DNA of 33,364 nucleotides, from IMG/VR virus record IMGVR_UViG_3300005663_000138, positions 1-33,364 of that record; one strand, 5' to 3'. A model generated the notes under the pieces. The model saw only the letters and a program-made list of their open reading frames with translations. It was not told the DNA's origin and made no database searches. Positions 3,271 through 27,895 of the stretch are shown here, piece after piece. The DNA is from a virus. How positions within the stretch are numbered: the stretch's first letter is position 1; every line of letters starts with the position of its first letter. The translations under genes and the position numbers were made by a program.

Positions 3271-5319
3271 ATGAGCAAACAAGCGAACGCGTTGGGGAAG
3301 ATCCTCACCGCCGTTCGGAAGGAGTTCGGCAAGTCGAGCGCGATTCGGTTGTCGGACGGCTTCCGCGGCGAGGTCGTTCAATCGATCCCCACGGGCATCG
3401 AGGTGTTCGATAACTACGTTGGCAACTGCGGCGGGCTCCCCGTCGGCCGCGTCGTCGAGTTGTTCTCCGAGGAAGGAGTTGGGAAAGCGCAGCCAGTTGA
3501 TGCGGAAGTCTTGACCCCAACCGGCTTCAAGCCGATCGGGACACTCCATGTTGGCGACGTGGTAATTGGGCGGAATGGGGCATCCACGAAGGTCACGGGT
3601 GTTTACCCCCAAGGTCGCAAGGATGTCTATCGCGTGACGTTGACCGACGGCACTTCGACCGAGTCGTGTCTCGAACACCTCTGGCTTACCTCGGGCTCGA
3701 ACGACGTTTCACGAGGGACGGGTGGTCGCGTACGATCGCTTGGTGAGATAATCGACAGTGGGCTATTCGAGAACCACGGGCAGTGGCAAGCATACAAGCA
3801 CCACTTGCCGGAGCTAGCCCCGGTCGAGTTCTCGGGTTTGGGTTCATTGCCTGTGCATCCCTATTTGCTAGGGACTCTGCTTGGCGACGGCGGGTTGACC
3901 AAACGCTCAGTTCATCTCCATAACCCCGAAGACGATGTATTACGTCGCGCGGTTTCATTGTTGCCGGATGGCGACTGTGCGCATCCCCTGTTGGACGGTT
4001 GTGGTGTACGGATCGTGCGACGCGAATGGAAGTACCATACGCCCACTGCTTTATCGGACGCCATCGCGGAGCTAGGTCTCCGCGGCGCACGCTCGTGGGA
4101 AAAGTTCATTCCCCGTATGTATCAGTTCGCTAGTGTTGACGACAGACTCGAACTCTTGAGGGGCCTCGCCGACACCGACGGTCACGTGAACAAATGCGGC
4201 ACGCTCCTCGAATACCGCACCGCTTCCGAACGGCTCGCGGATGATGTAGCGTTCGTTGCGCGGTCGCTCGGCGGGATCGTTCGTGTGAGAACGAAGATAC
4301 CAACATACCGACACAAGGGACGCAAGAAGAAAGGTCGCCCCGCCTACATACTGCTCATCCGGTTCGGGAACGGTGTCGTACCTGTTTCATCAAGCAAGCA
4401 CCTCGCTCGCTGGCGCGAACGAGAACAACCGGCCTACCGCTCGATCGCTAAAGTCGAGAAGAGTCGCGAGACAGGTTGTGTCTGTATCAGGGTAGCGCGT
4501 CCTGATGGCCTGTACGTGACCGACGACTTCATCGTCACGCACAACTCCAGCCTATGCCTCGCGATGCTTGCGGCGGCGCAGCGCGCGGGCGCGACTACGA
4601 TCCTCTCGGAGACCGAGAACGGGTTCACCGAGGAACGCGCGGTGACGTTCGGCGTCGACCCCGAACAGCTCGGGTTGTTCCAGCCCGACTACATGGAGCA
4701 GGCGTTGCAGCAGTTGGAGCTGACCCTCGACACGGTGAAGCCAAAGGAGGGTCCGTACCTCATCGCCTGGGACTCGCTCGCCGCGACGCCTACGAAGTTG
4801 GAGATCGACCAGGGCGTCATGAACAAAGCCGCGCAGGACAACCGCGCGCTGCTCATGTCCCGGTCGCTGCGCATCCTCACGCAGAAGGCGGCACGCGCCT
4901 GCGCGATTCTACTCATCGTCAACCAGACGCGACACAAGCGCGGCGTCGTGTTCGGCGACGACACGACCACGCCGGGCGGGAACGCTCTCAAGTTCCACGC
5001 ATCGATCCGGCTGCAGCTCATGGGTGGCAAGGCGGTCAAGAAGAGGGACGAGCACGTCGGCAAGGACCTCCTGGTCTTCGGCAAGAAGAACCGCTTCGCG
5101 ACTCCGTTCCGTAAGGCGCGGCTTCGCCTGATGTACGACGAGGGATTTGACAACGACTGGTCCACGCTGAACCTCGCGAAGGACTGGAAGCTCGTTGCGA
5201 AGAAGTCGCGCGATGCCGAGGCTGCGCGAACGCGCCTCAAGGAGATCGGATGGGATCGCGGGAAGGCCCGCGACCTTGCAGCGGATTTGGGGTTCGCAGA
5301 CGAGGATGACGACGAGTAG
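3271..5319 (+). CDS. RecA/UvsX-like recombinase interrupted by an intein in the P-loop
   Basis: This is an ATP-dependent strand-exchange protein. Without the intein it is 329 residues. The N-terminal helix and linker (IRLSDGF...IPTGIEVFDNYVG) are followed by the Walker A loop EEGVGK^SSLCLAML, rejoined across the intein. Walker B is LIAWDS, and an L2-like DNA-binding segment with TTTPGGNALKFHAS precedes the RLQLMGG strand. The C-terminus is charged and ends in an acidic run (DEDDDE). ATG at 3271 has an AGGGAG ribosome binding site. The length and the acidic tail fit phage UvsX/RecA hybrids. Together with gp32-like, gp46/47 and UvsW-like genes it supports recombination-dependent replication. 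Confidence 0.93.
   Translation: MSKQANALGKILTAVRKEFGKSSAIRLSDGFRGEVVQSIPTGIEVFDNYVGNCGGLPVGRVVELFSEEGVGKAQPVDAEVLTPTGFKPIGTLHVGDVVIGRNGASTKVTGVYPQGRKDVYRVTLTDGTSTESCLEHLWLTSGSNDVSRGTGGRVRSLGEIIDSGLFENHGQWQAYKHHLPELAPVEFSGLGSLPVHPYLLGTLLGDGGLTKRSVHLHNPEDDVLRRAVSLLPDGDCAHPLLDGCGVRIVRREWKYHTPTALSDAIAELGLRGARSWEKFIPRMYQFASVDDRLELLRGLADTDGHVNKCGTLLEYRTASERLADDVAFVARSLGGIVRVRTKIPTYRHKGRKKKGRPAYILLIRFGNGVVPVSSSKHLARWREREQPAYRSIAKVEKSRETGCVCIRVARPDGLYVTDDFIVTHNSSLCLAMLAAAQRAGATTILSETENGFTEERAVTFGVDPEQLGLFQPDYMEQALQQLELTLDTVKPKEGPYLIAWDSLAATPTKLEIDQGVMNKAAQDNRALLMSRSLRILTQKAARACAILLIVNQTRHKRGVVFGDDTTTPGGNALKFHASIRLQLMGGKAVKKRDEHVGKDLLVFGKKNRFATPFRKARLRLMYDEGFDNDWSTLNLAKDWKLVAKKSRDAEAARTRLKEIGWDRGKARDLAADLGFADEDDDE
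3487..4545 (+). other. Class 3-type intein with two LAGLIDADG motifs in the RecA Walker A loop
   Basis: This 353-residue in-frame insertion lies between Lys and Ser of the ATP-binding loop. It begins with Ala (AQPVDAEVLTPTGF), not Cys or Ser, and ends THN before extein Ser. Block B reads ESCLEHLW and block F reads CIRVARPDGLYVTDDF. The Trp of block B (intein residue 66), the Cys of block F (about residue 333) and the Thr of THN (351) form the Trp-Cys-Thr triplet that defines class 3 inteins, which start splicing from the block F cysteine. Two LAGLIDADG motifs are clear: LLGTLLGDGG and LLRGLADTDG. The endonuclease therefore looks intact. Confidence 0.93.
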
Positions 5320-5334: not shown

Positions 5335-5555
5335 ATGTCGGATCTCATAGCTGTTCTCTTCGCGTTCTTTCTCGGTCCGCCCGAGACCTGCAACTCAACG
5401 TTCTTCGGAACGCCGGGCGACAAGTGGGCCGGCGGCGACGCGCTCTACTTGAAACGTCCTGTCAACGATCGCGACGTTTCGGCTCGATGGTCGTGCTTGT
5501 GCACACGCGGACCGGGTTGTTCACGGTCGCGCAGGTTGTCGAGGATGTCGCATGA
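5335..5555 (+). pseudogene. Frameshifted RlpA-like (double-psi beta-barrel) gene remnant
   Basis: The first frame (ATG 5335) encodes a signal-like start (MSDLIAVLFAFFLG), a Cys and GTPGDKWAGGDALYLKRPVNDRDV. It then loses similarity, while the -1 frame continues with MVVLVHTRTGLFTVAQVV and stops at 5555. Both pieces line up with the intact gene at 6074-6475: DKHRGGKSPCL...RVDDHGI for the first and RVVVINIRTRLAVTTVILDHGPYG for the second. The AHRTLKCG segment and the GPYG end are missing. I read this as a copy broken by a small deletion with frameshift and then truncated. An HNH endonuclease gene starts 53 nt later, so the damage may be linked to its arrival. Confidence 0.65.
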
Positions 5556-7205: not shown

Positions 7206-7726
7206 GGACCGTCTACGGCGTCGTGGTGCATCCGGTCTGCGAAGACAAGACCTGTCGGGATCGCAACGTCGACCATGGCCACCGCAAGGAGCCGGAGACG
7301 AAGGCGACGGAGATCGGCTGGTACGATGAGTGCTGGCTGAACGCGCGCAGCAAGCCGCTGTTTCTGCTACGGCTGTTCGGGATACTTGCGTCGATCATCG
7401 CTGCGATGTTCACCGTCGTGACCTGGGTAATCCCCACGCTGAGCATGCTGGAGGCGTTCGGGCTCGCCGGCTGGTACTGGATCGCCTATCGCCGGATGAG
7501 TCGGTCGCGCTGCGTCTCCTGTAGGCAGCTCCCCGAAGCGCACACGCTGTCAGGACGCGGCGTGTCCAACGTGAGTCCGATCCCTCGACCGCCGCCGGGC
7601 CAACCGCCGGCTAGGTCACCACGGTACCGTCCGCGGCTCCATCGTCGGGGCGAGTGCCAAGCATGCGACAACATACGCGCTGACAGGGATCGGCACCTCG
7701 CAACAACGCGGACGGTGGACCCGTGA
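7202..7726 (+). CDS. Membrane protein with cysteine pairs, unknown function
   Basis: This 174-residue protein has a soluble N-terminus of about 55 residues containing CEDKTC and His residues. One or two hydrophobic segments follow (LFGILASIIAAMFTVVTWVI and the adjacent AFGLAGWYWIAY). The C-terminal tail is Pro- and Arg-rich with two CxxC pairs (CVSC, CQAC). The topology suggests an inner-membrane protein with a zinc-binding cytoplasmic tail. No family is recognised. The ATG lies inside the right copy of the direct repeat, so its 5' context was probably remodelled by that duplication. The stop overlaps the next GTG start (GTGA), so the two are likely translated together. Confidence 0.6.
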   Translation: MRTVYGVVVHPVCEDKTCRDRNVDHGHRKEPETKATEIGWYDECWLNARSKPLFLLRLFGILASIIAAMFTVVTWVIPTLSMLEAFGLAGWYWIAYRRMSRSRCVSCRQLPEAHTLSGRGVSNVSPIPRPPPGQPPARSPRYRPRLHRRGECQACDNIRADRDRHLATTRTVDP

Positions 7727-7980
7727 GTGCGCTGTTGCGAGTGTTGAGAGATCGTGGACCGCATACCTGGTTCGGTTGGCTCAACTTCTTGTTGGTCCAG
7801 TGGTTGTTCGTTCGGCTTCAGCGCACCTGTGAGTCAGTGACGACTGGAGGTTTCTCCCTGCCAGGCGTCGATGGGCGCTGGCGGCATGGGAGCTGGAATG
7901 TCATCGGCCCGATCGTTCCGATGACGGGTTGGTGGCAACGTTACATCTGGCTGCTGCCGAAGGGTTGGAGGCTCACCTGA
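7723..7980 (+). CDS. Small Trp-rich protein, unknown function
   Basis: An 85-residue protein rich in Trp and aromatic residues. It has one moderately hydrophobic stretch (WFGWLNFLLVQWLFVRL) that may lie on or in the membrane, and a C-terminal GPIVPMTGWW...GWRLT. No family assignment is possible. It starts with GTG overlapping the stop of the membrane-protein gene upstream and ends TGATG at the start of the SbcD-like gene. It therefore belongs to the same translationally coupled group. The tight overlap on both sides supports it as a real gene. Confidence 0.6.
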   Translation: MSALLRVLRDRGPHTWFGWLNFLLVQWLFVRLQRTCESVTTGGFSLPGVDGRWRHGSWNVIGPIVPMTGWWQRYIWLLPKGWRLT

Positions 7981-9104
7981 TGCGCATCGCTTTTTGCAGT
8001 GATGTTCATATTGGAAATTTCCACAAGTTCGGTGGCGCGATGGAAGTCGGACTGAACGCGCGCTGCCGCGCCGTATGCGATGCGCTCGACCGCGCAGTGG
8101 ACCGCGCGAAACGTCTCGGCTGCGAGGCGTTCTACGTGGCCGGTGATCTGTTCGACTCGACGAAGCCGTCGCCGCAGATGATCGTTCGTGTGCAACACGC
8201 TCTCTCGCAGATGCGGTCCTACGTGATCGTCGGGAACCACGACCAACAATCCTACGACGTTGGCGACAATGCGTGCGGTCCCTTGACCGCGAGCGCGGTC
8301 CGCGTCATCGACCGACCAGCCCTAGTCGGATACGACGAGCACAACGTCGACATCTTTGCGGTACCGTTCCGACCGGGGCCCGCGGAAGACTGGATCGAAG
8401 AAGATGTTGCCGAGGTGAAGGGTCGGGTGCGTACGGGAAGACCAGCCTCCTCTCGTCGCGCGCTCGTCCTTCACCTCGGCCTTTACGAAGACGACGCGAT
8501 GCCGCATTGGGCGAAAGGCTCGAACGATTGCATCCCTCTCTCGTTGCTCCGTGACTTGATGCGGCGGTTCGAGATCGACGCGGTGTTCGCGGGTAACTGG
8601 CACTGGCATAAGAAATGGTCGAAGCCGCGCATCGTTCAGTGCGGAGCGCTCGCGCCGACAGGGTTCGGTGACCTTGGCTTGGCGGGTCACGGCATCGTCG
8701 TCTGGGACACCGACACGTTGGAGACCAAGCACGTCGAGGTTCCGGGTCCGCGATTCATCGACGTCCCGCCACCAGGTCAGCCGTGGAATCTTCAGACCTA
8801 TCGTGATGCGGCAGAAGCGGGGTGTCGGATCTATGCGCGAGCGAAGGTGCCGGCGGACAAGGTGGGCAATCAGGCCGGACACTTCCGCGCTGCCGATCCC
8901 GAGGGCGTGTTGTTCGCAGGCTTCACGGTGCTGCCCGACACGAGCGAGGCCGAAGCTGCGGCACGAACCGCGGCGACCGTTGCGCGCAGTGCTGAGACAC
9001 TGCTCGACGCGCTCACGGGTTTCGTCGGAGAGATGCCGCTCGATGAAGGTGTCGAGCGCGACCGTGTACTCCAACGGTGTAGGTTATACTTGAATACCGA
9101 TTGA
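7980..9104 (+). CDS. SbcD/gp47-like metallophosphoesterase nuclease subunit
   Basis: This 374-residue nuclease subunit corresponds to the Mre11/SbcD/T4 gp47 family, which processes DNA ends with an SMC-like ATPase. The phosphoesterase motifs are in order: DVH (residues 8-10), GDLFD (55-59), GNHD (85-88), LHLG (164-167) and GNWHWH (205-210). All metal ligands appear present. The C-terminal 120 residues are a less conserved capping region. The partner ATPase gene follows at 10337 but is separated by a TnpB element. The last few codons (after TAT TAC-like GGTTATAC at 9082) probably come from the inserted element: excision would give an end LGR-stop overlapping the start of the next gene. Confidence 0.9.
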   Translation: MRIAFCSDVHIGNFHKFGGAMEVGLNARCRAVCDALDRAVDRAKRLGCEAFYVAGDLFDSTKPSPQMIVRVQHALSQMRSYVIVGNHDQQSYDVGDNACGPLTASAVRVIDRPALVGYDEHNVDIFAVPFRPGPAEDWIEEDVAEVKGRVRTGRPASSRRALVLHLGLYEDDAMPHWAKGSNDCIPLSLLRDLMRRFEIDAVFAGNWHWHKKWSKPRIVQCGALAPTGFGDLGLAGHGIVVWDTDTLETKHVEVPGPRFIDVPPPGQPWNLQTYRDAAEAGCRIYARAKVPADKVGNQAGHFRAADPEGVLFAGFTVLPDTSEAEAAARTAATVARSAETLLDALTGFVGEMPLDEGVERDRVLQRCRLYLNTD

Positions 9105-10335
9105 ATTTACGCTATGATATCTGCCGTGAACCGATCGTACCGCTACCGGCTCAAGCCGACGCGGAGGCAGGCCCGCGCTCTCATGGCGTGGCTTGCGATG
9201 ACGCGCGAACTCTACAATGCCGCGCTCCAGGAGCGTCGAGACGCCTGGAAGAAGTGTGGGGTATCTGTCTCGATGTACGACCAATCGCGCGCGCTTGCGG
9301 AGGTCCGAGACGCGCGTCCCGAGTTTCGTCGGGTACCTGTCGTAGTATTGCGCGGTGCGCTGCGGCGTCTTAACGGTGCCTTTGGTGCCTTCTTCAATCG
9401 CGTGAAGGTTGGGGAAAAGCCTGGCTTCCCACGTTTCAAGGGTGCGCATCGGTTCAACACGATCAGCATCGACGATCTTAGGAAACGTAATCCGCTCGAC
9501 ACTGATCGGCGTCGGCTCGCTATTCCGATGCTCGGAAAAGTCAAGATCGATATTCATCGCCCAATGGAAGGTGCGCCAAAGACGATGCGGCTCACGCTCG
9601 ACAACGGACGCTGGTATGCCTCGATTCAGTGCGTTGACGTTCCAACGAAACCGCTAGCACCCGCTGGTCACGAGGTTGGTGTTGATCTTGGACTCAGGTC
9701 GTTTGCGGTCACGAGCGATGGCGAAGTGTTCGAGAACCCGCGTGTTCTACGTCGAGCGGAGAACGCGGTAAGCCGAGCGCAGCGCCGGGTATCAAAGAAA
9801 AGGCGGGGTGGTCGCAACCGTCGGAAGGCCGCGCAGCGACTCGCGCGACGTCACGGTCAACTTTGCAATACGCGCCGCGAGCACCATATCCAAGTAGCTC
9901 GCGCACTCGTTGCTACGAATGATCTGATCTGTGTCGAAGCTCTGAACATCAAAGGTCTCGCCCGATCGAGGCTGTCGAAATCTGTCTATGATGTTGGTTG
10001 GGGAAGTTTCCTCGGATGGTTACGTACGAAAGCGGAAGAAGCTGCGCGCGTGGTCGTGGAAGTGAACCCTGCCGGGACATCGCAAACTTGTAGCGCGTGT
10101 GGCGATGAGGTCCGCAAGAGCCTCGCCGTTCGCGTCCATCGTTGTCCGTGCGGACTTGTGGTGGACCGTGATGAGAACGCGGCGCTCAACATCCTAGCGG
10201 CCGGTAGGGCCGTGCGGCGAGAGGCGCTCCGAAGTAAGGGGACCTCTGCGACCCGCGAAGTTCGAGTCAGGACCACACGATCGGTTCACGCCTCAAATGG
10301 TTCTGGCGTTACATAGGACATTGCACAGGTTATAC
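9090..10335 (+). mobile_element. Lone TnpB (IS605/IS1341-type) insertion between sbcD and sbcC
   Basis: The nine bases AGGTTATAC occur at 9081-9089 and again at 10327-10335, just outside and just inside the two ends of a block holding only tnpB. There is no TnpA transposase, as in IS1341-type elements. Joining the two copies recreates a normal overlap between sbcD (ending LGR-stop) and the TTG start of sbcC, which argues that this is an insertion into a contiguous operon. IS605-type elements insert next to a short target motif, here apparently TTATAC. The exact ends are an inference; the guide RNA, if present, would overlap the 3' end of tnpB. Confidence 0.75.
9114..10316 (+). CDS. tnpB: TnpB RNA-guided nuclease (IS605 family, OrfB)
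   Basis: This 400-residue TnpB is the transposon-encoded RNA-guided DNA nuclease related to Cas12. The start (NRSYRYRLKPTRRQ) is the family N-terminus. The RuvC-type catalytic residues are visible: Asp in GVDLGLRSFAV (about 191), Glu in ICVEALNIKGL (about 275) and Asp in DRDENAALNI (about 353). The zinc finger CSAC...CPCG lies between the last two. All key residues are intact, so it is probably active. ATG 9114 was chosen; GTG 9126 is an alternative closer to the usual start, and neither has a good ribosome binding site. Only 20 nt follow the stop before the presumed right end. Confidence 0.93.
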   Translation: MISAVNRSYRYRLKPTRRQARALMAWLAMTRELYNAALQERRDAWKKCGVSVSMYDQSRALAEVRDARPEFRRVPVVVLRGALRRLNGAFGAFFNRVKVGEKPGFPRFKGAHRFNTISIDDLRKRNPLDTDRRRLAIPMLGKVKIDIHRPMEGAPKTMRLTLDNGRWYASIQCVDVPTKPLAPAGHEVGVDLGLRSFAVTSDGEVFENPRVLRRAENAVSRAQRRVSKKRRGGRNRRKAAQRLARRHGQLCNTRREHHIQVARALVATNDLICVEALNIKGLARSRLSKSVYDVGWGSFLGWLRTKAEEAARVVVEVNPAGTSQTCSACGDEVRKSLAVRVHRCPCGLVVDRDENAALNILAAGRAVRREALRSKGTSATREVRVRTTRSVHASNGSGVT

Positions 10336-11944: not shown

Positions 11945-11986
11945 GTTAGATTCCTTATGTCTGCTACCTGTGCTAGTGTCACTCGC

Positions 11987-13528
11987 ATGGTCGACCGGGA
12001 AGCAGCCGCCGCGTCGGTCCACCGGCTGCTCGTAGCAGTCGGCGAAGACCCGAAACGCGAGGGCCTGCAAAGAACGCCCGAGCGCGTCGCTCGGGCTTAT
12101 GAAGAGCTGCTCGCCGGGTACAAGCAGGACCCGAAGAAGATTCTCGGACGCGACTTCTCCTCCGAGGGTTACGACGAGATGATCGCGTTGCAGGAGATCG
12201 ACTTCTACTCACTGTGTGTTCCATCACGGCAACTAATCAATGTCGTAGGTGGCGCCAAGCGCGCCTCACAGGTTGAAGTTGGTGATAGGTTTTGGACCCT
12301 TCGGGAAGGCAGGTGCGTTGAAACGAAGGTCGCATCAGTTACATCGCGCAAGACACGCGAGATTGTCGAGGTCGAAACTGAAGCTAGTAGTTTTCGTGTC
12401 ACGCCAGACCACCCGCTCGCGACTCCTGATGGGTGGTGCGAGGCTAAGGATCTAGCAGGACGAAAGATTGAGTGGACGCCACCCCGAAGCCTTTGCAGGC
12501 GTCGCTATCCACCCGAGGTCGGTTACGCTTTGGGGTACACGATTGGAGCAACGTGTTCGGATGGCTCTGTCGGGGAACGTAGTCTTTCGCTTGTAGTGAA
12601 CGACGAGAACTTTGCATCGAAGTACGCAACAACCTTGGAGCAGGCGTTTGGCATTGAGGCCGAAGTCGAAGCAGTGTCTCGACCCTCGGGTTTCACTGGT
12701 CGTGATACTCCAGGCTTCCGGGTGAGGGTTGTGTCGAGCTACCTTGCTGACCTATTCAGGTTGTGGCTCGGCGGTGATGCCCATCATATGCGTCAAAACT
12801 TTCCCCGCGTCGTGTTGTCATCGTTCGGCACGATGCAAGGTTTCATCGACGGCTACATCGACGGAGATGGTTTCCCACGGAAGGATCAGCCTGGCTCGCT
12901 CGTCGTTAGCGGCAATGCTGACTTCCTTGCAGAATTTGCGAAGGTAATCGAAGCAAGATTCACCGCACAAAAGGGCGCTTCCCAACTGTACATTAGCGAT
13001 CGATGGTGGCAACGCGGGTGGTACGGCCGACACGGCTTTGAGCAGGAGTGTCACCGCACGGACTTGGTCGAGAGTCGTTGGGTAGATGTTCGGGCAGTAC
13101 GGTGTCTGCCCGAGCCACAAAAACCGTACACCGTTTATAGTTTTGTTTGCGAGCCCCACCCAACATTCCTCATCGCAGGTCACTTGGCGCACAACTGTGA
13201 ACACCACCTGCTGCCGTTCCACGGGACCGCGACGGTGGTCTACTTGCCCGGCGAGCGTGTCGTCGGTATCTCGAAGCTCGCTCGACTCGTTGAATGCTAC
13301 GCACGTCGGCTCCAGATCCAGGAGCGAATGACCAAACAGATTGCCGATGCGCTGCACGTCCACCTCGAACCGAAGGGGTGGGGCGTCACCGTCTCCGCGC
13401 AGCATCTCTGTATGGCAGCGCGCGGCGTCGGGAAGCATCGTTCGACAATGACGACAACTGCTTTGGGCGGCGTCTTCAAGGACGACCCCATGGTGCGGCA
13501 GGAGTTCCTGCGACTCGCGAGCCTATGA
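11987..13528 (+). CDS. folE: GTP cyclohydrolase I (FolE) interrupted by an intein
   Basis: It converts GTP to dihydroneopterin triphosphate, the first step towards preQ0. Without the intein it is 186 residues, normal for FolE. The N-terminal part ([22 protein letters not shown]) is followed by the zinc and active-site segment, rebuilt by splicing as DFYSL joined to [10 protein letters not shown]. The second zinc Cys is in [12 protein letters not shown]. All catalytic residues are present. I chose ATG 11987 (MVDREAA) since FolE proteins start close to here; ATG 11957 would add ten unlikely residues. No clear ribosome binding site is seen, while TGTGCTAGTGT about 8 nt upstream resembles an extended -10, so a leaderless transcript is possible. 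The stop overlaps the aminotransferase start (ATGA). Confidence 0.95.
12215..13195 (+). other. Intein with LAGLIDADG endonuclease directly before the zinc cysteine of FolE
   Basis: This 327-residue in-frame insertion begins with Cys ([13 protein letters not shown]). It has block B TPDHPL and ends LAHN before extein Cys, all canonical for a class 1 intein. Endonuclease motifs are [14 protein letters not shown] and [11 protein letters not shown]; the second is a clear LAGLIDADG match and the first is diverged. The +1 residue needed for splicing is the same Cys that binds the catalytic zinc in FolE, so the site is both essential and conserved. Base use is slightly more AT-rich than the exteins, consistent with separate acquisition. 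Confidence 0.95.
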
Positions 13529-14394
13529 CGAACCTTGGACCAAACGCGCGGTCTCACTCGGGGTCCGCTCAATCGTTCCACCACCGGTCGCCGGAGTACG
13601 CGGGGTTGCTGTACTCGCTTGAAGAGACGTTCCGCGAGAAGTTCAATGTACGTCCATCCTCTTCGGTACTGTTCCTGACCGGGAGTGGGTCGCTTGCGAA
13701 CGAGGCGGTCGCGGCAAGCCTCACCGTGCCGCTGTACGTGAGTGGCGTGCAGTACGAGTTCGGCTCTCGGCTTCAGCGGTACCTGCGCGCCCACGACAAC
13801 CTCGACGACCGGGTCGCAGGTCGCCACGCTTGGGTCGGCTACGAGACCAGCGCGTCGCTGAAGATGTCGGGGCCGCCGAGTGCACAGTTCACCTTCGTGG
13901 ACATGGTCTCCGCGTTCCCGTACTACCTACCCGATCCGTCGTGGGATATCTGGACGACCGTGAGCAGCAAGCAGCTTGGTGCCCTCCCGGTCATCGGCAT
14001 CGTAGTCGTTGCCGAGCGCGCGTGGCAGCACTTGCTCAAGGAGTCCGAGGCGTACTCCTATCTCAACCTCGCACGCTATCGTGCGTACCAGGCTCTCGGT
14101 CAGCCGCCACACACTCCGGCAATCCCCCTCTTGTACGACCTGCTGACCACGCTGAGCGAGTTCGATCGCGACGTACTTGTGGCACAGATCGACCGTCGCA
14201 GGTCGCTGCTCGCTGAGGTCGTTCCGCCGGAGCACAACATAGGGAAAGGACCCGTGTTCACGATTGCGGATGTCGTGCGCGCCGAAGTTGTGCAGAGGTT
14301 CGGATTGTACCCCGGCAAGAACTGTTGGCAGGTCTTCCTCTGGTCGGGAGAGGACGATGACTACGACGAGCTGCGGAGGGAGCTGCAACGATGA
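13525..14394 (+). CDS. Class V (PLP-dependent) aminotransferase in the deazaguanine operon
   Basis: This 289-residue protein has the hallmarks of class V fold-type I aminotransferases (alanine-glyoxylate or serine-type). In order: FHHRSPEY near the N-terminus, [11 protein letters not shown], an ETS-like segment (YETSASL), the cofactor aspartate in FVDMVSAFP, and the PLP lysine in [16 protein letters not shown]. The [26 protein letters not shown] stretch matches the family's substrate-site helix and TPA motif. It is about 60-90 residues shorter than bacterial relatives, mostly in loops and the small domain. It overlaps folE and queC by ATGA at both ends, so it is made with the preQ0 enzymes. 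A role in altering the 7-deazaguanine side chain is possible but unproven. Confidence 0.8.
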
Positions 14395-15044
14395 CAACGG
14401 CCGTCTGCGAATTGTCGGGTGGGTACGACAGCGCGTTGTCCACGCTGCTCGCCCTTCGGAAGTACGATTCCGTGTTCGGCGTCTTCACGAACTACGGACA
14501 GGTCTACGCCGAGCAGGAGCGTGCGAGTGCGGAGTACCTCGCGGAGTGGTTCACGCGCTACCCGTCGTGGCGCGGACTGACCCGCTTGAAATGCACGCTC
14601 AGTCAGGCGCTCCCTGACCAGAGCGACAGCCCATACATCCCCGTTCGCAACCTCGTGCTCGGTACCCTCTCGGCAAACTTCGCCCAGGCCCACGGAGCGA
14701 ACGTGGTTGTGGTCGGTAGCAAGACCACGGAGTACCGGCCCGACGATCCCTACTGCTGGTACGATTGTACCACGGAGTTCTACGAAGGGATGGGTGCGCT
14801 CGTTTCTCTCGCGGCTGAGGCGGGGCACGAGATCAGGTACGAGCAGTCGCTCATTCTCGACGGCCAACCGCTGACGAAAGCCCAGGTCCTCGAAGCGTTG
14901 ATCGACGAGGGCATCGCGCTCATCAAGCTCTGGAACTGTTACGAGGCGGGCGAGCGCCCGTGTCAGAAGTGCTTTCACTGCCTCGACATGCGCAAGACGT
15001 TGGAAGGCATGGGTCAGCTCACGCGATTCGAGGGTTGGTGGTGA
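14391..15044 (+). CDS. queC: 7-cyano-7-deazaguanine synthase (QueC)
   Basis: This enzyme converts 7-carboxy-7-deazaguanine to preQ0 using ATP and ammonia. The 217-residue protein has the PP-loop SGGYDSA (9-15), the segment YIPVRNLVLGTLSANFA that lines the active site, and the zinc site C183, C191, C194, C197 (WNCYE...CQKCFHC). All are expected for QueC, and length is normal. Start and stop overlap the flanking genes (ATGA and GTGA), so translation is coupled. No GAT amidotransferase domain is fused, so conversion of preQ0 to the archaeosine-type base by a Gat-QueC is not indicated. Confidence 0.95.
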   Translation: MTTAVCELSGGYDSALSTLLALRKYDSVFGVFTNYGQVYAEQERASAEYLAEWFTRYPSWRGLTRLKCTLSQALPDQSDSPYIPVRNLVLGTLSANFAQAHGANVVVVGSKTTEYRPDDPYCWYDCTTEFYEGMGALVSLAAEAGHEIRYEQSLILDGQPLTKAQVLEALIDEGIALIKLWNCYEAGERPCQKCFHCLDMRKTLEGMGQLTRFEGWW

Positions 15045-15889
15045 AAATCTATCTGGTGATGAGCCCGTACGTGAAGCCCATTCCCTGCCCGCCGCGCATC
15101 CTGATCAGCTACTTCTACTTCTACCGGTCGTTCCACAAGTCCAAGTCACCGAACTACGCGGGTGTCGAGTATTACGCGAGGCACGGGTGCGACATCTTCG
15201 TCGACTCGGGTGCGTACTCCGCGTGGACATCGGGTACGAGCATCGCGATCGGCGATTACATCAACTTCTTGAAGCGGTGGCGTAGCAAGGTCGCGATCTA
15301 CGCGAACCTCGACAACATCCAGAGCAGCAAGTTGACGGATCAGAACCAGCGGTACCTTGAGTCGGAAGGGCTCGCACCTCTGCCGGTCTACCATATGGGC
15401 GAGGACGAGTCGGTGCTCGAAGGTCTGTGCGAGCGATTCGACCTCGTCTGTTGTGGTGGTACGGGCTCGGTGCTGGGCGAGGGTGCTAGCAGGAAGCGTC
15501 GCTCGAAACAGTGGCACTTCGATCGCGTCTTCAAGATTGCCCAGGAGCACGGGACCAAAATCCACGGCTTCGGCATCACCGACTTCCCCCTGCTCAAGGC
15601 GTACCCGTGGTACTCCGTCGACTCGTCGTCATGGGCACGGCCATTGCGCTTCGGGAACATCCCCCTCTTCGACCCGCGTCGCGGCACGACCGTCTCGTTC
15701 AAGATGACGGAGCTGCAACCTCTCATTGAAAACCGTGAGCTGCTGCAAGAGGTCTACGGCGTGCAGCCCAAGCAGCTCTTGTACCGCAAGGCGACCCGTG
15801 TCCAGATCGCAGCGCTGTCGATCAAGAGTTGGCTGCTACTTGAAGAGTGGTTGACGAAGCGCGAACAGAAGGCGAAGGCTATCGCATGA
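15041..15889 (+). CDS. dpdA: DpdA-like DNA-guanine transglycosylase
   Basis: DpdA enzymes are relatives of tRNA-guanine transglycosylase that swap guanine in DNA for a 7-deazaguanine. This 282-residue protein is of the phage type. It has FVDSGAYSAW (53-62, with the catalytic-type Asp), YANLDNI (88-93), PVYHMGED, a GGTGSVLG loop, and HGFGITDFPLLKAYPWYSVDSSSW (175-198). GTG 15041 overlaps the queC stop. The gene lies in an operon with all four preQ0 synthesis genes, which strongly supports DNA as the substrate. No QueF is visible, so the inserted base is most simply preQ0, unless the operon's aminotransferase or another gene changes it. Exact phage DpdA subtype is not resolved. Confidence 0.88.
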   Translation: MKIYLVMSPYVKPIPCPPRILISYFYFYRSFHKSKSPNYAGVEYYARHGCDIFVDSGAYSAWTSGTSIAIGDYINFLKRWRSKVAIYANLDNIQSSKLTDQNQRYLESEGLAPLPVYHMGEDESVLEGLCERFDLVCCGGTGSVLGEGASRKRRSKQWHFDRVFKIAQEHGTKIHGFGITDFPLLKAYPWYSVDSSSWARPLRFGNIPLFDPRRGTTVSFKMTELQPLIENRELLQEVYGVQPKQLLYRKATRVQIAALSIKSWLLLEEWLTKREQKAKAIA

Positions 15890-16593
15890 CGCAGATCAGA
15901 ACGTTCGATACCGACTCGGTCTCCCGCGCGGACCTGCACCTCGCGGACTACAACCCGCGCACCATCAGCAAGAAGATGTTGTCGGAGCTGTGCGAGTCGC
16001 TCGTGACCTACGGGTTTGTCCAGCCGGTCGTCGTCCGCAAGGAGGACGGCCTCGTCATTGGTGGCCACCAGCGCCTCGCAGCGTACGACGCACTGGTCGC
16101 GGAGCACGGAGAGAACGTGTTGCCCGGCGGCGTCCCTGTGGTCTACGTCGACGGCCTCGACGATCGCGAAGTGAAGATCCTGAACCTGACTCTCAATAAG
16201 GTGCAGGGTTCTTGGGACTACGAAAAGTTACCCATCGTCGTCCAAGAGATCCTCGACGGTGTTGACCTGAACATCGCGGACGAAGACCTCGAAGTGTCGG
16301 TCGCGGGTTTCGACTTCGCGGAGATCAATGATCTACTCGACCTCTCCATCCAGCCGGACCTCGGGGAAGTCGAGCCCTTCGAGAAGATATCATCGGGCGA
16401 ACGCGTCCTGACCTACCGCCTGCCCGAGGAAGCGGCCGACGAGGTCGAAGCCATCCTGTTGCGGTTCGGCGCCGACGAGTTCAAGAAGCGGTCGGCTGCG
16501 TTGCTCAAAGCGCTGCGCGTTGCAGCGGAGACCGTGGAGGCGCGGCAGGCAGAGGAGACCGACGATGGCGATACAGATCACACGCCGGCTTGA
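15886..16593 (+). CDS. ParB/sulfiredoxin-fold domain protein
   Basis: This 235-residue protein has an N-terminal ParB-like nuclease domain. It shows the segment LHLADYNPRTISKKMLSEL, then YGFVQPVVVR and VIGGHQRLAAY (GGHQR at 59-63). The C-terminal 120 residues are acidic and predicted helical and carry no recognised domain. Phage ParB-like proteins of this type are often found with DNA methyltransferases and can have nuclease or CTPase activity; here the function is unknown. It sits inside the deazaguanine operon, overlapping dpdA (ATGA) and queD (29 nt). A DNA-modification or packaging-related role is an inference from that position. A second ParB-like gene occurs at 27248-27895. Confidence 0.85.
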   Translation: MTQIRTFDTDSVSRADLHLADYNPRTISKKMLSELCESLVTYGFVQPVVVRKEDGLVIGGHQRLAAYDALVAEHGENVLPGGVPVVYVDGLDDREVKILNLTLNKVQGSWDYEKLPIVVQEILDGVDLNIADEDLEVSVAGFDFAEINDLLDLSIQPDLGEVEPFEKISSGERVLTYRLPEEAADEVEAILLRFGADEFKKRSAALLKALRVAAETVEARQAEETDDGDTDHTPA

Positions 16594-16981
16594 GATCGAT
16601 GCGGGGCATCGCCTGCTCAAACACACGGGCAAGTGTCGACACGTGCACGGCCACCGCTTCGTGTTCGACGTGACCGTCTCCGCAGAGCAGCTCGACGAGG
16701 TCGGCCGGATCATCGACTTCGGCGAGGTCAAGCGTATCCTCGGTGGCTGGCTCGATGAGCATTGGGACCACGGCTTCATCCTCACCGCCGACGATCCACT
16801 TCGAGAGTTCCTTCAGACGCATGAGCTGAAGCACTACGTTCTGCCCTGGGCTCCGACCGCGGAGAACATCGCGGCCTACTTCTTCAAGCAGGCGCTCGAC
16901 CTCATGCGCCAGGTCGGCATCGATCTCGTGAAGGTTCGCGTCTGGGAGACACCGAACTGTTGGGCGGAGGTGACGTCGTGA
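16565..16981 (+). CDS. queD: 6-carboxy-5,6,7,8-tetrahydropterin synthase (QueD)
   Basis: This enzyme makes carboxy-tetrahydropterin from dihydroneopterin triphosphate, the second step to preQ0. The 138-residue protein has the zinc ligands His15, His28 and His30 (AGHRL, CRHVHGHRF) with the catalytic Cys24. It also has the DFGEVK segment and LDEHWDHGFIL (63-73), followed by PTAENIAAYFF and the C-terminal VRVWETP with the substrate-binding Glu. All residues expected of QueD are present. It starts inside the 3' end of the ParB-like gene and its stop overlaps the GTG start of queE. Confidence 0.95.
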   Translation: MAIQITRRLEIDAGHRLLKHTGKCRHVHGHRFVFDVTVSAEQLDEVGRIIDFGEVKRILGGWLDEHWDHGFILTADDPLREFLQTHELKHYVLPWAPTAENIAAYFFKQALDLMRQVGIDLVKVRVWETPNCWAEVTS

Positions 16982-17697
16982 GCTACAGGGTGCGCGAGAT
17001 TTTCTCAACGTTGCAGGGCGAGGGATCGCGCGCCGGTTCCCTGTCGGTCTTCGTTCGCTTCGCAGGCTGCAACCTGTGGAACGGACGACCCGAGGACCGC
17101 GAGAAGGGGAAGGGCGCTTGCGCGCTCTGGTGTGACACCGACTTCGTCAAGGGCAAGGAGGTCTCCGCCGAGGACGTTCGCCTCGAACTCGATCGGCTCT
17201 GGGGGGAGCGTCTGCCGTCTGCAAAGTGGTGCGTGCTCTCGGGCGGCGAGCCGCTGCTCCAGGTCGACCACGCGCTCGTTGACGAGCTGCAGAGGCACGG
17301 TTGGAACGTCGCGATCGAAACGAATGGTACGCTGGACAACCGCGCTCTCGACCTCATGGACCACGTCTGCGTTTCGCCGAAGCTCGGCTCGACGATCGAG
17401 CGGATGCGTGCGGACGAGCTGAAGGTTGTGCTGCCGGGGCACGTGGACTTCGAGAAGGGTTGGACGGACGGTCGGCTCGTCGACCTCCAGGAGAGCGGCG
17501 AGTGGGGCGCGCTCTACATCCAGCCGCAGGACCCGATCTACACGGACGAGGTCAACGCGAGTTACCTCGCCTCAAAGGTGCGGACCGGCGGTCGCGATCT
17601 CTACGAACGAAACCTCAATCGGTGTCTCAACTTTGTTGCGAACCATCCCGAATGGCGCTTGAGCCTACAAGTCCACAAGTATGCTCGCATCCCCTGA
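16978..17697 (+). CDS. queE: 7-carboxy-7-deazaguanine synthase (QueE), radical SAM
   Basis: This is the radical SAM enzyme that rearranges carboxy-tetrahydropterin to 7-carboxy-7-deazaguanine. The 239-residue protein has REIFSTLQGEG at the N-terminus, RFAGCNLWNG, CDTDF, LSGGEPLLQ and ETNGT, all QueE signatures. Cluster cysteines are C31, C48 and C52, a C-x16-C-x3-C spacing. QueE enzymes commonly use CxxxCxxC or C-x14-C-x2-C, so this is an expanded variant of the latter type. GTG 16978 overlaps the queD stop. The 3' end overlaps the methyltransferase by 17 nt. The reading frame is intact and the assignment is firm. Confidence 0.94.
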   Translation: MSYRVREIFSTLQGEGSRAGSLSVFVRFAGCNLWNGRPEDREKGKGACALWCDTDFVKGKEVSAEDVRLELDRLWGERLPSAKWCVLSGGEPLLQVDHALVDELQRHGWNVAIETNGTLDNRALDLMDHVCVSPKLGSTIERMRADELKVVLPGHVDFEKGWTDGRLVDLQESGEWGALYIQPQDPIYTDEVNASYLASKVRTGGRDLYERNLNRCLNFVANHPEWRLSLQVHKYARIP

Positions 17698-18247
17698 AGA
17701 GTTTGGCGCGGTTCTCGCGGATCCGCCATGGCCGTTCCGTGACCGCGGCTCTCGCTTCTCGCCCGACTACGAGGGGCAAGAGTTGGCAGACCAGTCGAAG
17801 TACCAAGTGTTGACGGTCGCAGACCTCTGCGCGATGGGCTGGGCGGTGAAGCACGTTGCCCTTGCCGACTCGTTTCTGTTTCTCTGGTCCCCGAACGCGC
17901 TCGTCCTCGACGGTACCGCAACCCGCGTTGCTCGCGCATGGGGTTTCGAACCGAAGCAGCTCATCCCGTGGGTCAAGGTAACGAATGACCGCAAGAAGCC
18001 GCGCATCGGTGGCGGACACTACACGCGCGTCTGTACCGAGCAACTCGTGCTCTGTCGCCGCGGGAAGGCGAAGGTGCTGCGGCGCGACATCCCGGGCGTC
18101 ATCCACGCGCCACGAGGAAACGAGCACAGTCGAAAGCCATGCGAGTGCTTCGGGCTGATCGAGAAGCTGGTCAGCGGTCCCTACTTGGAGTTGTTCGCGC
18201 GCCGCAAGTTCTCTTCGCTCTGGACTGCGTGGGGCGATGAGATGTAG
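17681..18247 (+). CDS. MT-A70 family adenine-N6 DNA methyltransferase
   Basis: This 188-residue protein has the MT-A70 catalytic motif DPPW (14-17). LFLWSPNALV follows, then a WVKVTNDRKKPRIGGGHYTR segment, EQLVLCRRG and the C-terminal ELFARRKFSSLWTAWGDE, which closes the SAM-binding fold. It would methylate adenine N6 in DNA, or possibly RNA, as family members do. It is the last gene of the deazaguanine operon and overlaps queE. Phage genomes often carry such orphan methyltransferases against restriction; here it could add to the protection given by 7-deazaguanine bases. No cognate endonuclease is seen. Confidence 0.9.
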   Translation: MLASPEEFGAVLADPPWPFRDRGSRFSPDYEGQELADQSKYQVLTVADLCAMGWAVKHVALADSFLFLWSPNALVLDGTATRVARAWGFEPKQLIPWVKVTNDRKKPRIGGGHYTRVCTEQLVLCRRGKAKVLRRDIPGVIHAPRGNEHSRKPCECFGLIEKLVSGPYLELFARRKFSSLWTAWGDEM

Positions 18248-27247: not shown

Positions 27248-27895
27248 TCACTGTTCGCCCAGCAATCGCAGCAATCCCACAGACAGTTCGTTGCCCTTGC
27301 CCGCCGCGCGGCGCAGACCTTTCCGGGCTTGCTGGTACTCCTCGCGTGACGAGAACAGGATCTCGATGAGGAAGGGACGCGGTGGCGGCGGGTCGAGGTC
27401 GGGTGGCGGAGCGCCTCCCATACCGGAGAGGTCCTCACCCGGGTCGCGCGTCACCGTGTCGATCAGGTCGTTGATCTCGCTCTCGTTGAAACCGCTGAGC
27501 ACGAGGTCGTCCATTGCCCAACCGTTCTTCTCCAGGTCAGCCAGGATGCGCCCGACCCCGGAGAGGTCCAGCTCGCCGCGCAGCTTGTTCATCCCGACCC
27601 GCAGCACCTCGGCCAGTGCGTGTGCGTCATCCTCCTGGTCGACCACGACCGCGGAAACGAACTCGTACTCCAGCTCGCGCGCTGCGCGGATGCGGTGATG
27701 TCCGTCCACGATCTCGAAGCGATCGTTCTCCGTCTCTTTCAAGAGAACCGGCTGCAGGAACCCGAACCGACGGATCGCTTCGACGAGCCGCACGTACATC
27801 TCGGGCTCCATGACGTTGGGGTTGTCGGGCGCTTCATCGATCGTGTCCAAGCGAACGTCGACGACGTGCGTCTCTGGTCCCAGTGCAATCTTCAC
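27248..27895 (-). CDS. ParB-like N-terminal domain protein
   Basis: This 215-residue protein contains the ParB/sulfiredoxin-type domain: EAPDNPNV, then RFGFLQPVLLK and VDGHHRIRAARELEYEFVSAVVV (DGHHR at 64-68). After the domain come helical and Pro-rich parts (GGAPPPDLDPPPPRP). Family members can act as nucleases, CTP-dependent clamps or regulators; none is proven for this type. It overlaps the sigma-factor gene upstream by 4 nt (ATGA). It differs clearly from the ParB-like protein at 15886, so the window has two distinct members. Confidence 0.85.
   Translation of the reverse strand: MKIALGPETHVVDVRLDTIDEAPDNPNVMEPEMYVRLVEAIRRFGFLQPVLLKETENDRFEIVDGHHRIRAARELEYEFVSAVVVDQEDDAHALAEVLRVGMNKLRGELDLSGVGRILADLEKNGWAMDDLVLSGFNESEINDLIDTVTRDPGEDLSGMGGAPPPDLDPPPPRPFLIEILFSSREEYQQARKGLRRAAGKGNELSVGLLRLLGEQ

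Follow-up and report, generated by a model that had tools for sequence, protein, structure and literature searches.

A phage 7-deazaguanine DNA-modification operon with a class V aminotransferase-like gene between folE and queC

Mycobacterium phage Rosebush and Escherichia phage CAjan carry 2'-deoxy-7-cyano-7-deazaguanosine (dPreQ0) in their DNA, and the known phage 7-deazaguanine bases differ from one another by small side-chain steps, according to the available part of the text (Hutinet et al., 2019, PMC6884629). Here we describe a viral DNA of 33,364 nucleotides (IMG/VR record IMGVR_UViG_3300005663_000138; this whole stretch is called the window), which carries a related operon at 11987–18247. 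Eight genes form a single run on the + strand: folE, a gene for an aminotransferase-like protein (AT), queC, dpdA, a parB-like gene, queD, queE and an MT-A70 methyltransferase gene. A preliminary description, made from the letters alone, had named FolE, QueC, a DpdA-like protein, QueD and QueE as a 7-deazaguanine set, and all of them were found again by family matches; on these matches we consider the gene set confirmed. The genes named thus stood, whereas an intein in FolE, the ParB-like gene, the MT-A70 gene and altered motifs in QueC had been missed. On balance we lean towards a reading in which the pathway makes a 7-deazaguanine base and AT is an inherited extra enzyme, most likely engaged in side-chain nitrogen chemistry at the QueC step or an adjacent one.

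The embedded gene and its recurrence in a second phage

The AT gene (13525–14394, +, 289 aa) lies between folE and queC (14391–15044, +, 217 aa) and overlaps both by 4 nt, the shared letters being ATGA in each case, exactly as the preliminary description had reported. Its G + C content at third codon positions (GC3) is 0.79, in line with its neighbors, and this neighbor-like codon bias, together with recurrence in another assembly, rules out a chance frame or mis-call. The window itself aligns to a longer record, IMGVR_UViG_3300005253_000063 (G001, 118,354 bases), over 33,389 columns with 0 mismatches and one 25-base gap; at window position 5479, 25 bases of that record are absent, the rest being identical. 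G001 matches a portal protein (PF04860, 53.8 bits, above the cut-off) and a terminase (NF033889, E 5.4e-27, below the cut-off), and is therefore taken for a tailed phage.

The other assembly is that of a second phage, L187 (IMGVR_UViG_3300031576_000039, 64,701 bases), with the gene order SSB, RecA, SbcD, SbcC, folE (free of an intein), AT, queC, dpdA-parB, queD, queE. Here folE and AT are 1 nt apart, while queC shares 4 nt with AT before it and 4 nt with dpdA after it. The two phages are well separated: 21 predicted G001 proteins, from a gene list that did not hold AT (queried separately), match L187 at E ≤1e-6 with 28–59% identity in the aligned parts, the exception being the C-terminal 105 residues of FolE at 71%. 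Within the operon, AT is 50% identical over 283 residues, next to 61% for the FolE exteins, 49% for QueC, 59% for QueD and 49% for QueE. The ratio of the nonsynonymous to the synonymous proportion of differences (pN/pS) is 0.61 for AT, 0.52 for FolE, 0.63 for QueC, 0.51 for QueD and 0.68 for QueE, at pS values of 0.52–0.62, where synonymous sites are near saturation. The dpdA parts, by contrast, agree at just 24% of 204 aligned residues. AT was thus retained through the divergence or replacement of dpdA, and the folE-AT-queC block of L187 makes AT look like an inherited part of the operon. We count the unchanged position, the 4-nt overlap with queC and a conservation like that of QueC and QueE across two diverged phages in favor of a role in the pathway.

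The claim that such a gene is not among the known genes of the system held up, and L187 shows that its place is kept. No such AT was found in the accessible portions of the literature searched on 7-deazaguanine, DpdA, aminotransferases and modification enzymes; in PMC6884629 the word aminotransferase occurs only in a legend, for the preQ0-to-G+ genes, which are called amidotransferases in the text.

Assignment of the protein to the class V aminotransferases, as proposed in the preliminary description, was right though far from obvious. AT is assigned to no family by Pfam (E 0.1) or PHROG (E 0.01), and PF00266 was found neither for the window AT (E 0.1) nor for that of L187 (0 families at 0.05); PADLOC gave no match for AT or for DpdA. 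Searches with phmmer against proteins of known structure returned weak matches (3f0h, E 2.7e-5; 1iug, 5.6e-5), and the NCBIfam matches are all far below cut-off, namely pyridoxamine-pyruvate transaminase (PPAT, 9.8e-7; 27.9 bits vs 600), PhnW (6.7e-6) and BhcA (5.4e-5). An alignment was built from the window AT and 51 other class V proteins (51 of 80 candidate frames), to which the L187 AT was added to give 53 rows. Seven columns are the same in all 53, D126, K149 and T197 among them, so that the lysine for pyridoxal 5'-phosphate (PLP; K149) and the pyridine aspartate (D126) are kept. AT is without some 25 residues between R88 and W103, and its C-terminal domain is shortened.

Prediction with AlphaFold gave a predicted local distance difference test score (pLDDT) of 73.1 and a predicted template modeling score (pTM) of 0.75 without the L187 sequence, and 86.1 and 0.87 with it; the latter model was used. 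By VIA-align it is closest to 2yri_A (Z 28.0; 2.9 Å, 281 residues), 6pd1_D (27.6) and 7e7g (27.1), and the remaining top rows are class V transaminases as well. Rows within 1 Z are tied, hence the fold gives no substrate identity. As the alignment supplied to AlphaFold was itself built from class V proteins, support from the fold is partly built in, and the rise in confidence on adding a single phage sequence is the fairer sign. A viral structure library yielded only distant PLP folds (9–15% identity in the 25 best rows), among which are aminotransferases encoded by phages Pupper and Tonenili. In the tree of the 53 rows the AT of the window and that of L187 fall into a single clade (100/100), whose stem measures 3.66 changes per column; each of the two was flagged for unusual letter composition. 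Weak from one sequence, the class V assignment becomes firm when the second phage copy and the predicted fold are taken together.

The distribution of AT appears narrow. The viral scans were ranked and the best 80 matches kept in each, so more AT phages may exist; flanks reached up to 7 kb, were shorter at many loci, and lie on virus contigs that may be fragments. A tblastn search of 50,697 phage records returned no match to the window AT at E 0.01 and none to the L187 AT at E 1, and AT alone recovered only its own copy from the viral contigs. With the limit set to E 10 the window AT gave three unconvincing rows in the phage records, including one at E 1e-4 that the same query had not returned at 0.01, an inconsistency between the two limits. 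This row is a class V frame on an unverified 6-kb contig of bacterial appearance with, by eye, LicD-like and cytidylyltransferase-like neighbors; another falls inside a 1525-aa frame that by eye has no other sign of an aminotransferase, and the third has E 9. Plasmids gave five rows, the best at 26.2% identity over 70% of the query and none covering 80%. Among the best 80 matches of a genome scan the top identity was 29%, and in none of the 80 was folE, queC, queE, queD or dpdA found in the flanks examined.

Viral loci were collected from both sides of the pathway. A DpdA profile scan of viral contigs gave 247 relatives, of which the best 80 were taken, one being this phage; a phmmer search of the flanks of the remaining 79 gave no AT (best E 0.97), although FolE was present in 70, QueD in 66, QueE in 63 and QueC in 45. 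Among the best 80 loci of a QueC profile scan AT occurs in one, L187 (phmmer E 1.7e-78); the two sets have one contig in common (L041 = L251). The preliminary description had proposed a search for co-occurrence with dpdA; AT was found in one of the 80 best queC loci and in none of the 79 other viral dpdA loci. A profile made from the two ATs, run on the frames of loci L003–L179 (window copies except L092 left out) and L187–L266, matched only the window copy, L187 and L179 (E 2.4e-13) among viral loci; its other 84 matches were frames of cellular or plasmid type, the best at E 1e-19. L179 carries an ordinary class V aminotransferase, with no deazaguanine genes found in its flanks. PF00266 was absent from all 50 virus records searched (50 of the 80 DpdA-scan loci), a result that rules out only ordinary class V enzymes because it also misses AT in its own contig, G001. 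In line with the earlier expectation that the gene is not spread through unrelated contexts, no phage-type copy was found elsewhere in the records searched.

The QueC pocket and possible roles of the aminotransferase-like protein

The canonical motifs of QueC are given as SGGxDS, YxQxHxxE, VPxRN, YPDC and C(x)8CxxCxxC, and in the same source, as far as its text is available, Y35A, R99A, Y131A and Y189A are inactive and Y131F is partly active (PMC13329287). The window QueC (PF06508, 82.4 bits vs cut-off 22; NCBIfam TIGR00364, 75.7 bits, below its cut-off of 150.3) keeps SGGYDS, IPVRN with R99, and the four zinc cysteines with Y189, the last in a motif CY(x)6CxxCxxC that is one residue short of the reported C(x)8C. 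YGQVYAEQE and WYDC in the window, and YGQPYARQE and FWDC in L187, stand in place of YxQxHxxE and YPDC. These changes were counted in an alignment of 154 rows drawn from 149 loci, some of the rows being incomplete or from proteins other than QueC. His occupies the H39 column in 127 of the 154 rows, P132 is replaced by an aromatic residue in five (the window, L187, L036, L026 and L027), and 25 have an additional residue ahead of the Glu. When only the 125 rows with both Y35 and Q37 are considered, position 39 is other than His in four: Tyr in the window and L187, Leu in L036 and Asn in L249. Tyr39 is thus found in 2 of 125 rows, both from AT phages, and Tyr39 combined with WYDC or FWDC in these two phages only.

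If the genes act as their families suggest, GTP would be converted by FolE, once spliced, to dihydroneopterin triphosphate (H2NTP), by QueD to 6-carboxytetrahydropterin (CPH4) and by QueE to 7-carboxy-7-deazaguanine (CDG), which QueC would turn into an amide or nitrile before DpdA exchanges the base into DNA, probably helped on DNA by the ParB-like protein. AT would act on the nitrogen of the 7-position side chain. Small side-chain steps reportedly distinguish phage 7-deazaguanine bases in work by Cui from 2023 as well. We infer from the retained residues and the gene order that AT binds PLP, and likewise that it has a role and a place in the pathway; it probably contributes to the synthesis of the unusual base, and its substrate is the least certain part of this reading. 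Several points weigh against it. AT is found in just two phages of one lineage, and for that reason the QueC change and the AT gene count as one event. The pocket of L036 is altered as well, to Leu at H39 and YWDD, and its examined flanks show no AT; the pocket can thus change without one there, and the QueC change is weakened as a mark of AT phages. In class V enzymes the substrate carboxylate is bound by an arginine of the last strand; that strand reads CWQVFLWSG in the window AT and GYQVFLWSG in that of L187, in a register that is uncertain, and since neither holds a basic residue, AT may not be a normal transaminase. Finally, adjacency does not by itself place two genes in one pathway.

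Passenger genes are known from phage operons, and AT might be a metabolic gene unrelated to DNA modification. The 79 other viral dpdA loci, none of which has AT in the flanks examined, agree with this, yet the gene holds the same place in two phages that have diverged to 28–59% identity in most of their shared proteins, and in both overlaps queC by 4 nt; we regard a passenger as unlikely. The other proposals are definite forms of the reading favored above, and their odds overlap. In one of them AT would make a primary amine, which the altered QueC would join to CDG instead of ammonia, and DpdA would insert an N-substituted 7-carboxamide-7-deazaguanine. We know of no such base in DNA. The relatives of AT, by weak sequence similarity and by fold, include 2-aminoethylphosphonate transaminases, enzymes that handle a primary amine, and the window QueC lacks the canonical H39 and YPDC (motifs as in the available text of PMC13329287). 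What raised this model is the QueC relative Cap9, described in the accessible part of PMC13279940 as coupling CDG to a protein N-terminal glycine, an amine used in place of NH3. Nevertheless, the window QueC retains Y35, R99 and Y189 and has an aromatic residue at Y131, which leaves plain preQ0 synthesis possible, and the altered pocket of L036 without AT counts against the model too; as a specific proposal it is quite unlikely. If true, QueC would be an amide ligase with a small-molecule substrate, intermediate between the metabolic enzyme and the protein-tagging one known from cyclic-oligonucleotide-based antiphage signaling (CBASS).

Only slightly less weight goes to the proposal that AT is a PLP enzyme releasing ammonia locally for QueC, or a non-catalytic partner protein. 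The amidotransferase and glutaminase domains PF13522 and PF00117 were found in neither of the two phage records, which are possibly fragments (ArcS was not searched for), and the 217-aa QueC is without a fused Gat domain. The retained PLP residues speak against a dead enzyme, and the free ammonium that E. coli QueC is generally taken to use was counted against local release. Least probable, to the point of being doubtful, is an interconversion of preQ1, an aminomethyl base that a host QueF would supply, and a 7-formyl base, in either direction and in the manner of pyridoxamine-pyruvate transaminase on pyridoxamine. That family is the best NCBIfam match of AT (E 9.8e-7, 27.9 bits vs cut-off 600), but with PhnW close behind (6.7e-6) the match fails to separate class V subfamilies. 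No QueF was above cut-off in either phage record; PF14489 exceeded it in 0 of 3 records, which may be fragments, and two weak QueF matches land on FolE. For the favored reading, the combination of a PLP-type enzyme encoded next to queC, as it is in two phages, with a changed QueC pocket leads to a definite prediction for mass spectrometry.

The FolE intein and the remaining genes

FolE is encoded as a single 523-aa frame (11987–13528, +; an in-frame ATG is also present at 11957) that matches its family at both ends, with 327 foreign residues between (PF01227 and TIGR00063 in two stretches; PF01227 222.8 bits on the whole frame, 11957/11987–13528). The N-terminal extein (11987–12214) and the C-terminal extein with the zinc-site residues (13196–13528) have GC3 values of 0.79 and 0.76, against 0.56 in the intervening LAGLIDADG intein (12215–13195, +). 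The intein begins with Cys, contains a TPDH block and ends in His-Asn before the Cys of CEHH (a C...HN|C junction), which we take to be the zinc-site cysteine of FolE. In the intein-free FolE of L187 the site is empty (FFSL|CEHH), an exact gap relative to the window FolE. LAGLIDADG_3 is barely above its cut-off (22.8 bits vs 22.5) and the splicing (Hint) profiles are below theirs (PF14890, 14.3 vs 35.8; TIGR01445, 19.1 and 19.5 vs 24.5), which is why the claim relies on the junctions and the empty site. Because the predicted intein splits the zinc site, FolE would be expected to work only once it has spliced itself out. A profile scan of viral contigs found a FolE intein only in the window phage and in L056 (IMGVR_UViG_3300036829_000239), where it occupies the same site and is 57% identical (51% over the whole alignment of FolE plus intein); none was found in the phage records at E 0.01, and none in the available text of the literature on folE or GTP cyclohydrolase with inteins.

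DNA polymerase I, RecA, a DnaB-like helicase and the portal of this phage also look split by inteins. Within the window the stretches are at 168–1061 (approx.), 3487–4545 (approx.) and 12215–13195, others lying in G001 outside the window. LAGLIDADG_3 is above cut-off in RecA, DnaB, the portal and FolE, and the polymerase has an intein_Nterm match above cut-off; in L187, RecA, DnaB and FolE have no such inteins and the polymerase has one elsewhere, by eye. A DNA-modification gene thereby joins the active sites occupied by inteins in this intein-rich phage. The polymerase frame (L093:3551–7120, beginning upstream of window position 48) has an N-terminal uracil-DNA-glycosylase domain (PF03167, 72.5 bits, above cut-off), and the L187 polymerase also aligns across this region.

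DpdA (15041–15889, +, GTG start; phrog_887, E 9.7e-54) overlaps queC by 4 nt (GTGA); by tblastn it matched 296 phage records, the best-ranked at 36.5% identity, and it had no match among PDB sequences. The ParB-like gene that overlaps it by 4 nt (15886–16593, +) matches phrog_498, phrog_620 and phrog_9353 at ~1e-28 and ParB_N at 24.4 bits, just below the cut-off of 26.3. In L187 the two are a natural DpdA-ParB fusion in one open frame (7657–9225; phrog_887, 5.4e-14; ParB_N, 53.3 bits). Profiles were built from six phages that have ParB next to DpdA, close to it or fused with it; they matched DpdA in 131 of 159 viral loci (158 contigs), and of these 131 a ParB-like match was on the same strand in 88 and within 300 nt in 70. 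ParB is unmentioned in the main text of Hutinet et al. (2019, PMC6884629). A second ParB-like gene of the window (27248–27895, −) is distant from dpdA.

Further along, queD (16565–16981, +) overlaps the ParB-like gene by 29 nt and matches PF01242 (PTPS, 117.6 bits), phrog_2389 and TIGR03367 (81.0 bits, below the cut-off of 89.25). It shares 4 nt with queE (16978–17697, +, GTG start; TIGR04508, 180.6 bits, E 3.3e-53, below the cut-off of 240; phrog_2076), which in turn overlaps the MT-A70 methyltransferase gene (17681–18247, +; PF05063, 75.1 bits) by 17 nt. From the role of its family, the latter is presumably concerned with adenine methylation. The gene in this place in L187 differs from it and by eye resembles a DNA methyltransferase, no family search having been made. 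Upstream of the operon, a TnpB/OrfB-type gene (9114–10316, GC3 0.60) lies between sbcD and sbcC, which are adjacent in L187, where it is absent.

Comparison with known systems

The pathway, its enzymes and its intein each have described counterparts. Among the branches of the QueC family, which include Cap9 and QatC, the window QueC fits the pattern YxQ(x)5E reported for Cap9, though at the zinc site it has Cys-Tyr where Cap9 has Cys-Glu, and its operon partner is dpdA, not a cGAS/DncV-like nucleotidyltransferase (CD-NTase), as far as the available texts describe these branches (PMC13329287, PMC13279940). With the class V transaminases of the AGT, PhnW and PntC-AEPT kind (2yri, 6pd1, 1m32, 3f0h) AT shares the predicted fold, the PLP lysine, the aspartate and other PLP-site residues. 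It differs from them in its length (289 aa vs about 345–410 for most listed single-domain chains), in the missing last-strand arginine, in forming a clade of its own and in an identity of at most 29% among the best 80 genome-scan matches. The FolE insertion is like other LAGLIDADG inteins in its Cys start, TPDH block, LAGLIDADG match and HN|C end, the difference being FolE as host gene.

The operons closest in content remain the preQ0 operons of Rosebush and CAjan. FolE, QueD, QueE, QueC and DpdA are common to them and to the window phage, in whose record, possibly a fragment, an amidotransferase was not found; on the side of the window phage, the embedded AT, the FolE intein and the changed QueC motifs set the operon apart.

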